Part shown: piece by piece, positions 2,074 through 7,789 of the stretch
Layout of the letters: each line of letters opens with the position of its first letter
Position numbering within the stretch: position 1 is the first letter of the stretch
Assembly: GCA_913060845.1 (NCBI GenBank)
Contig: CAJXVF010000098.1
Coordinates: forward strand, 1-7,789
Length of the DNA: 7,789 bases
Source: an uncultured Alphaproteobacteria bacterium
GTDB lineage: Bacteria > Pseudomonadota > Alphaproteobacteria > Bin95
Direction: 5' to 3'
Translations under genes and position numbers: made by a program
Notes under the pieces: model-generated
The model's database searches: none
The model's input: only the letters and a program-made list of their open reading frames with translations
What the model was told of the DNA's origin: nothing

Positions 2074-2418
2074 TCAGGTCTCGCTAGGGCCAGCGCCATA
2101 GGCAGCGGCAAGGGCGCGGTCCCGTAGATCATGCGCCCCGCGTGTAAGGCCATAGGGATGCGCAAACACTGCCCAGTTCACATCGGCAGCAGCCAGAAGC
2201 GCTTGCCAGCCTGCATCATCCAGAGCCAAAGCTTGCGTGACCGCAATTTCTTCGGCCAATTGCGCCGCTTCAGCCTTGCTAGCCTCTTTTAGAAACTGAA
2301 CTGCGGGTGCTGGCCAAGGTGCATTCCCCTCATCCCAGTCCTCATTGGCATAGGCCTTCAGAAGCTGCCACAGCATGCCATCTTCGGAAAGCGACGGTGG
2401 CGCGCTACTTCTCGACAT
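2074..2418 (-). CDS. CdiI-type immunity protein (CdiI_2-like), partner of the RNase A-fold toxin
   Basis: A small 114-residue soluble protein with no signal peptide or membrane segment. It is rich in Ala, Leu and Trp and is acidic (16 Asp/Glu against 7 Lys/Arg). The pattern LWQLLKAYANEDWDE (16-30), then AVQFLKE (39-45), an EEIA helix (56-59), and GLT (90-92) with a final helix resembles CdiI immunity proteins with the 'LxxLxxAYxxxDW' signature. This is recognised from memory, not by a search. Position supports the call: it directly follows the toxin gene and overlaps it by 14 bases, as toxin and immunity pairs do. Its proposed job is to bind the basic RNase domain in the cytosol and block it. 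The start ATG at 2418 has only a weak binding site and probably relies on coupling to toxin translation. Met15 (2376) is an alternative start. Confidence 0.75.
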   Translation of the reverse strand: MSRSSAPPSLSEDGMLWQLLKAYANEDWDEGNAPWPAPAVQFLKEASKAEAAQLAEEIAVTQALALDDAGWQALLAAADVNWAVFAHPYGLTRGAHDLRDRALAAAYGAGPSET

Positions 2419-3019
2419 AGGCCGTTAGCAAGCGGTAGCTCTGCTTGCCTTTGCTTGTCCATTTTGTCAGCACCACTTCGGCCGTGTTGCCTTGGCGTCG
2501 ATCACCACCGCGATAGGCGATGCGGCCGATTGGTTTGTCAAAGAACCGGCGGAGGGCCAAGCGTCGTTTGCTATCATTATCCGCGAGCCATCTTTGTACG
2601 CGCGGCTTATTCGGCTTGTGATTGATAGTTCGCACAATCGCGATGGCTGCCGATTCAGTGTCAAAGAAACCGGATGCGACGCTCTTATCGTCCCGTTTAA
2701 TCCGGTCTTCCAGATCGTCATAGGACTTGCCAACATGGCGGGCGATTGTGTGGCCGCGATGTTTGCCACCCTCTTGCGCTTTCAGCCAACGAACCGCCTG
2801 GGCGACAGCGTCATCCCGATTGCGGACAGGCGTTACAGACCGTGCTTCAGTGGTCTGCTGCTGCGCCTCAACCGGAGGCGGCGCTGCATTCTCCGCCTTG
2901 CTTTTGGCAAGGCGTGGATCGTCTCCCTGAAGGAAGGCGATCAGCAGCGCTACCCCCAAGGCTATGAAGGATAGAATTATTCGCTGGGTCTTAAGATCAA
3001 TGTTGAAGCGTTTAAACAC
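2405..3019 (-). CDS. Membrane-anchored RNase A-fold toxin (bacterial CdiA-CT RNase A family)
   Basis: A 204-residue protein in three parts: a short basic N-terminus with a hydrophobic segment at about 14-30, a Pro/Ala/Gln-rich linker (43-65), and a C-terminal domain (about 70-204) matching the bacterial CdiA-CT RNase A family. That domain has GHTIARHVGKS (89-99), the QRWLADN region (142-148), PIGR (163-166), and LLTAY at 197-201. In the Y. kristensenii CDI toxin the active residues are, as I recall, His175, Arg186, Thr276 and Tyr278. Here His95, Arg106, Thr199 and Tyr201 show the same spacings within each pair (11 and 2). There are no cysteines, as expected for this disulfide-free group. The domain is strongly basic (about +17 for the whole protein), suited to RNA. 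It has a GTG start at 3019 with AGGG six bases upstream. Basic residues before the segment predict the domain on the periplasmic side. Predicted role: RNA-cleaving antibacterial toxin. Confidence 0.82.
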   Translation of the reverse strand: MFKRFNIDLKTQRIILSFIALGVALLIAFLQGDDPRLAKSKAENAAPPPVEAQQQTTEARSVTPVRNRDDAVAQAVRWLKAQEGGKHRGHTIARHVGKSYDDLEDRIKRDDKSVASGFFDTESAAIAIVRTINHKPNKPRVQRWLADNDSKRRLALRRFFDKPIGRIAYRGGDRRQGNTAEVVLTKWTSKGKQSYRLLTAYVEK

Positions 3020-3040: not shown

Positions 3041-3547
3041 TTAAAGCTTGCCGTATGCCGCCGTGAACCCACGGAGCGAAACATTCAGATTGAGCTTCTG
3101 TCGGCGAATATTCTGCATGCCGATCACTGCCTTTGAGCCGCGCTTCAAGGCATTGACCTTGCCAGCAGCAAGCTGGATCTGCGCAAGGCAGCCGCCTTTG
3201 AGGCAGAACTCAAAATTTACCCGGTCAGCCTTGCCGCCATCAATGCCGAATGTCAGGCCTGGACGCAGCCAAACGCCAAGCGGCGCGCGCAGCGACAAGA
3301 TAACGCCAGACAGATTGGGTGGCTTCGCAACAACGACTTCCATCAGCGGATTGCCGTTTTTCGGGTCTTTGACGTTCTGAACCATGCGGCAGAGACGACC
3401 AGCCTGCGGGTTCTGTACGCATTCAACGGACCAATCGCCACTTTGCGTCCGCTCGACGTTCTGTTCCGCCTGCTGTGCCGAAGCTGGGAGCGCGCCAATG
3501 GAGCTGGCGATAAGGCCTGCGGCCAATGCAATTATGACTTTACGCAT
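3041..3547 (-). CDS. IalB-family (invasion-associated locus B) periplasmic protein
   Basis: A 168-residue exported protein. It has a clear signal peptide: MRK, a hydrophobic core to about residue 20, and PASA before QQ, with cleavage expected after Ala24. The mature part fits the alphaproteobacterial IalB family: GDWSVEC (37-43), a second Cys at 53, the MEVVV strand (69-73), GVWLRPG (91-97), FEFC (112-115) and GGC (118-120). The four cysteines at 43, 53, 115 and 120 fit two disulfide bonds in the periplasm. Named after a Bartonella invasion factor, the family is common in free-living species, where its function is unsettled. ATG at 3547 follows a good binding site (AGAGGAAAGG, 3556-3565). It appears to head the gene train running into the toxin, whose GTG start lies 21 bases past its stop. 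A shared role with the toxin is only inference. Confidence 0.88.
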   Translation of the reverse strand: MRKVIIALAAGLIASSIGALPASAQQAEQNVERTQSGDWSVECVQNPQAGRLCRMVQNVKDPKNGNPLMEVVVAKPPNLSGVILSLRAPLGVWLRPGLTFGIDGGKADRVNFEFCLKGGCLAQIQLAAGKVNALKRGSKAVIGMQNIRRQKLNLNVSLRGFTAAYGKL

Positions 3548-7738: not shown

Positions 7739-7789
7739 CTGTCTCTTATACACATCTGACGCTGCCGACGAATAGAGAGGTGTAGATCT
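7739..7789 (-). other. Nextera/Tn5 sequencing adapter (artefact)
   Basis: Reverse complement of the left-end adapter, seven bases longer. It holds the mosaic end (7739-7757), the read-1 primer part (7758-7771), index ATAGAGAG (7772-7779) and the start of the P5 arm GTGTAGATCT (7780-7789). Together with bases 1-44 it forms a perfect 44-base inverted repeat that mimics transposon or linear-replicon ends. It also places a false in-frame stop upstream of the Lon fragment. Confidence 0.98.

Follow-up and report, generated by a model that had tools for sequence, protein, structure and literature searches.

The 7,789-nucleotide (nt) contig CAJXVF010000098.1 of an uncultured Alphaproteobacteria bacterium (assembly GCA_913060845.1; this whole stretch is called the window below) carries two overlapping genes, one for a protein of the bacterial RNase A family with a predicted membrane anchor and one for an acidic, CdiI-like partner (Table 1). 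Both open reading frames lie where an earlier note on this DNA had placed them, and a chance origin of either is excluded, because protein searches at E ≤ 0.001 recovered 28 related proteins for the RNase protein and 25 for the partner. Their overlap makes translational coupling likely. Counted as K + R minus D + E, the net charges are +17 for the RNase protein and −9 for the partner, as had been remarked before.

Table 1 Features of the RNase A-family locus in the window (aa, amino acids)
Feature	Position	Strand	Description
RNase A-family gene	2405-3019	minus	204 aa, GTG start; predicted membrane-anchored
Predicted transmembrane signal anchor, residues 14-31	2927-2980	minus	Four basic residues before it; hydropathy, model helix, alignment
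Variable linker, residues 32-66	2822-2926	minus	Low model confidence, likely disordered
RNAse_A_bac domain, residues 89-201	2417-2755	minus	PF18431; H95, R106, T199 and Y201 predicted active
CdiI-like partner gene	2074-2418	minus	114 aa, ATG start; acidic, likely inhibitor
Gene overlap	2405-2418	minus	14 nt shared by RNase gene and partner gene
IalB-family (PF06776) gene	3041-3547	minus	Next gene upstream, separated from the RNase gene by 21 nt; neighbour, outside the pair

The RNase protein matched RNAse_A_bac as its sole Pfam domain above cut-off (E = 1.7e-20; 74.4 bits with a cut-off of 27), and its predicted model has an RNase A-like fold. The earlier note had proposed this family, to be abandoned if the profile did not match or the modelled fold differed from RNase A; both analyses were run, and both agreed with the proposal. 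The PDB sequence 5e3e_B, the CdiA toxin domain of Yersinia kristensenii (Ykris), also matches (E = 3.1e-4), and in this alignment H95, R106, T199 and Y201 pair with H175, R186, T276 and Y278, which are given as the active residues of CdiA-CT Ykris (PMC9086364); the shared spacing claimed earlier is thus borne out. H95 and R106 are invariant in the 27 rows of alignment A1 (the window and 26 of the 28 RNase relatives), and T199 and Y201 are conserved in 26 of them, the exception being P0008. This relative is 85% identical and ends before Thr199/Tyr201, so that half of its active residues are missing. Conservation is concentrated in the domain, with a mean majority fraction of 0.76 vs 0.35 in the linker. 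The protein scores 59.7 with the NCBIfam model NF041883 (RNase_A_lipo), below its cut-off of 200, and matches a PHROGs family of unknown function (E = 2.3e-12); a weak DUF2188 match under the Pfam cut-off was not used.

The N-terminus of the RNase protein is strongly hydrophobic, with a mean hydropathy of 2.48 over the 19 residues 14–32, a flanking net charge of +3 on the N-terminal side and 0 on the C-terminal side, and a helix at residues 9–30 of the predicted model, followed by a stretch of low per-residue confidence (pLDDT < 50 at residues 32–64). An N-terminal 19-residue segment with a mean hydropathy of at least 1.88 is present in 24 of the 25 close rows, and P0006, which begins inside the segment, reaches 1.46. 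Where at least seven residues precede the segment (22 rows), the net charge ranges from +2 to +5 before it and from −4 to +1 over the 15 residues after it. Under the positive-inside rule, a basic N-flank followed by a near-neutral or acidic C-flank predicts an N-in/C-out orientation, in which the RNase domain would lie in the periplasm and the N-terminal segment would hold the protein in the inner membrane. A simple pattern found no lipobox in the 25 close rows; among two distant rows, P0027 has one and P0028, by eye, a comparable Cys.

The overlapping gene had been described as CdiI-like, which holds for its family and predicted fold, although the window protein itself stays below the CdiI_2 (PF18593) cut-off (19.5 vs 26.7 bits, E = 0.0017). 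CdiI_2 matches 23 of the 24 members of the partner family at E ≤ 0.1 (best E = 7.2e-7), the family being represented by alignment A2 (the window and 23 of the 25 partner relatives). The predicted partner model is all-helical and has the fold of CdiI Ykris. The link to CdiI was reached via the partners of other RNase A genes: a profile–profile comparison of the partner family with CdiI_2-type partners gave 93.8% (E = 1.8e-7). For alignment A3, proteins encoded downstream were chosen by eye for a Y-x-x-Q-D-like motif, giving 17 rows and leaving out the near-duplicates L025, L027 and L033 as well as L010, L026, L029, L045, L046 and L047. No NCBIfam model matches the window partner, PHROGs has no family for it, CdiI_2 exceeds its cut-off in 0 of the 14 genomes of the order, and CdiI was not found among PDB sequences by single-sequence or family-profile search. 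The best PDB matches of the partner, designed TIM barrels (E = 7e-5), were taken as low-complexity matches, and a weak Tle3_C match under the Pfam cut-off was not used. The partner has no transmembrane-like segment (the highest 19-residue mean is 1.0 for the window protein and does not exceed 1.40 in any of 24 members) and is acidic in all 24 members, features that make a cytoplasmic location likely. In the solved Ykris complex CdiI contacts His175, Thr276 and Tyr278 (PMC9086364); by analogy, the window partner may mask the active site of the enzyme.

Both genes are present in three of the 14 genomes of the order and both are absent in the other 11, where no lone partner gene was found at E ≤ 0.01. 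The RNase gene directly adjoins the partner gene in all three carriers (the window, L005 = G001 and L006 = G003), and a flavin mononucleotide (FMN)-dehydrogenase gene, an IalB-type gene and the pair occur in the same order in each. In G003 the pair is followed by an H+-pyrophosphatase gene (by eye). What seems to be the same gene (by eye) comes 400 nt after the IalB-type gene in G002, and neither the pair nor a remnant of it was found in those 400 nt (best tblastn E = 7.9). Comparison of the occupied site in G003 with the empty one in G002 therefore indicates that the pair was gained or lost there as a unit at least once. No remnant was detected in G004 (best E = 0.54), where the contig ends 643 nt past the ialB-type gene and shows the site only in part. 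Between the window and G001, the one genome pair compared, the ratio of nonsynonymous to synonymous rates (dN/dS) is 0.021 over residues 89–204 (2.5 nonsynonymous vs 28.5 synonymous differences), 0.149 over residues 1–88 and 0.143 for the partner; in this comparison the RNase domain is under strong purifying selection. Enzyme-domain and partner distances are correlated across 11 pairs (r = 0.86; as high in 0 of 5000 permutations), for which shared descent alone suffices; three of these pairs are defined by direct adjacency and eight by contigs of equal length, a circumstantial sign of linkage.

Across the class, 8 of 385 genomes have PF18431 at E ≤ 0.001, and across the phylum 9 of 398; both counts include the window's own genome. 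The RNase gene is unmatched in 50,697 phage records, and no plasmid home was found for the pair: eight Pantoea plasmids match the RNase domain only, at 30–32% identity, in records that carry the name "RNase A-like domain-containing protein". A contig from a viral collection (L070:3640-3792) gives a partial 47% match over residues 59–107.

Upstream of the pair, the product of the neighbouring gene matched PF06776 in the Pfam profile search (E = 5.9e-33), and this gene and the RNase gene are likely on the same transcript. Positions 1–44 and 7739–7789, at the two contig ends, read as mutually inverted copies of the Illumina Nextera read-1 adapter; open reading frames running into those ends are therefore artefactual there.

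The earlier note also stated that in known cases the domain sits at the end of huge toxins, and this did not hold in a census of RNase A loci. Forty-six loci were entered, 43 of which matched the A1 profile at E 1e-3 (all except L047, L074 and L076); the fragment L075, with an internal stop, was dropped. Among the 42 classified loci, 16 encode small exported proteins, 18 share one short N-terminal domain and eight have another, longer pre-domain, of at least 500 aa in four (L018, L030, L038 and L073). The sample is biased, since the window's own family served as the query that brought in 35 of the loci. Exported forms (signal peptide, anchor or lipobox) were assigned by hydropathy and eye, and the shared-domain rows by motif (12 of 18) or by eye (6 of 18); the choice of start codon is uncertain, and L016 and L023 possibly exceed the rest in length. 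In L008 (Chloroflexota) and in L009 and L021 (Acidobacteriota), an exported RNase A gene overlaps a CdiI_2 gene that exceeds the Pfam cut-off. No partner-like open reading frame lies close downstream of the exported L012, L020 and L044, and L024 stops at a contig edge.

On a 50-domain tree, four changes account for the three architectures, compared with a mean of 21.3 after shuffling; none of 200 shufflings gave so low a number. The window subfamily (eight rows, 99/99), a signal-peptide clade (eight rows, 95/84) and a six-row clade made up of exported forms of three other phyla (99/96) are well supported, and all 18 shared-domain rows fall on one side of a branch (99/96). Taken together, the exported forms do not make up a single clade, and of the 47 inner forks 21 are open. 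The hydrophobic N-terminal domain of the shared-domain group, with an S/T-P-x-Q-L-A-A-like motif, precedes RNase A in proteins of mostly 270–330 aa that form one clade (L011, L013, L016, L022, L025, L028, L031-L034, L037, L039 and L043), mostly with a CdiI_2-like open reading frame next downstream, as judged by motif. Members of the signal-peptide clade (L019, L020, L026, L029, L035, L036 and L044) show, by eye, one Cys just ahead of the domain and a second towards the end of it (C-x-L-L/P-T), a pairing that suggests a disulfide and hence an oxidising compartment. Three Maritalea proteins (L019:7827-8723, L035:5453-6316 and L036:7908-8726) combine a signal-peptide-like N-terminus, the RNase A domain and a further domain that resembles separate downstream proteins of L026 and L029, and they are possibly exported enzyme–inhibitor fusions. 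This further domain was not used as evidence, its link to CdiI_2 being weak (38.8%) and one to the window partner absent (2.0%).

Several known systems resemble the pair in part. Barnase and barstar differ in fold from both window partners, and the protective role of barstar toward barnase is established. The model of the window enzyme is RNase A-like rather than of barnase type, and the comparison concerns the mode of working, not membership. What the systems would share is an exported ribonuclease with an intracellular protein inhibitor, as in Bacillus amyloliquefaciens (PMC8625414), here predicted from sequence; barnase is secreted free, whereas the window enzyme is predicted to remain anchored. 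CdiA-CT/CdiI Ykris (PDB 5E3E, Batot 2017, as given in PMC9086364) is similar in the RNase A fold, the His/Arg/Thr/Tyr active residues and the all-helical partner, but its domain is the C-terminal toxin of a two-partner-delivered CdiA, while the window domain belongs to a 204-aa protein with its own predicted anchor. Ribocin (RbcN) of Pseudomonas aeruginosa is likewise a stand-alone RNase A-fold protein with an export signal; it requires His, Thr and Tyr for activity, cleaves eukaryotic ribosomes, shares 15% identity with CdiA-CT Ykris and has no annotated domains, and an inhibitor gene is not mentioned in the available part of that report (PMC13189344). NF041883 and L008, L009 and L021 are also small exported RNAse_A_bac proteins; the window protein differs in lacking a lipobox and falls in a separate clade of the tree. 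Standalone toxin cassettes have been described in work on polymorphic toxins (PMC3482391), and a literature search of titles and abstract openings returned no description of an RNase A that is membrane-anchored and paired with a CdiI-like protein.

Three features absent from the earlier note, namely the conserved predicted anchor, the purifying selection and a chromosomal location downstream of an ialB-type gene, make the role of toxin assigned there doubtful. We favour, at about even confidence, a resident exported ribonuclease with a safety inhibitor, which would work like barnase and barstar with RNase A and CdiI folds and would be closer to that pair than to a giant toxin delivered on contact. 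An inner-membrane anchor would hold the RNase A protein so that its catalytic domain faces the periplasm, and the CdiI-like protein would block, in the cytoplasm, the active site of enzyme copies that fold before export; the enzyme may serve to digest extracellular or incoming RNA.

The main alternative, which we consider unlikely, is an antibacterial effector: the anchored RNase would be released or passed to neighbours at contact and act in their cytoplasm, and the partner would be a true immunity protein. The homology to the Ykris toxin and CdiI is in keeping with it, as are the patchy presence of the pair as a unit and a cytosolic immunity protein, which suits a cytosolic target. RNAse_A_bac is counted among the effector domains of the Klebsiella type VI secretion system (T6SS; PMC12469244), and the myxobacterial SitA/SitI systems, with linked immunity genes, show that envelope-bound toxins acting in the cytoplasm are deliverable; the SitA proteins are outer-membrane lipoproteins passed by TraA-dependent outer membrane exchange, carry other toxin domains and are larger (SitA1-FLAG ~62.6 kDa; PMC5562445). 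The 25 close rows, however, show no lipobox by the simple pattern, and the T6SS sheath protein VipB (PF05943) is found in none of the three carriers, the only genome of the genus with it being G002 (G002:C116:19317-20216), which lacks the pair. VirB4-type PF03135 was found in none of the five genomes of the genus. CdiB-type ShlB (PF03865) gave no match in G000 or G003 and one partial match in G001 (genome completeness 99% for G001 and G003, 83% for G000). The 204-aa RNase protein is not a large two-partner secreted protein ending in a toxin domain, as in contact-dependent growth inhibition (CDI). With the tested delivery machines and lone immunity genes lacking and the RNase domain under strong purifying selection, a resident role is more probable than a polymorphic weapon.

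A cytosolic toxin–antitoxin or cell-suicide module, in which a membrane-held, N-out protein would face the cytoplasm with its RNase domain and be freed or disinhibited under stress, appears improbable. It would place the partner and the RNA substrate in one compartment and accords with the gene overlap, but the flank charges predict the opposite topology, several related small forms have signal-peptide-like or lipobox N-termini by eye, and PADLOC reported no defence-system match. A remnant of a polymorphic-toxin cassette, kept by addiction or decaying and without a present role for the RNase, is very improbable: the pair is confined to 3 of 14 genomes and P0008 is truncated, but the active residues are conserved, the dN/dS over the domain is 0.021, and relatives at ~50% identity are still full-length.

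The best-known bacterial RNase A proteins are warheads of toxins delivered on contact. An RNase A that is conserved and apparently anchored, and that has a CdiI-like partner in carriers without the tested delivery machines, suggests a resident role outside the cytoplasm and raises a question of topology, with the enzyme outside and the inhibitor inside. More tentatively, an envelope-anchored resident RNase A with a cytosolic CdiI-type guard, a fold-swapped counterpart of barnase–barstar, may exist in at least three phyla (Pseudomonadota, Acidobacteriota and Chloroflexota), and resident pairs of this kind, rather than giant toxins, may be a principal setting for the bacterial RNase A family, with CDI and Rhs toxins as one of its uses.
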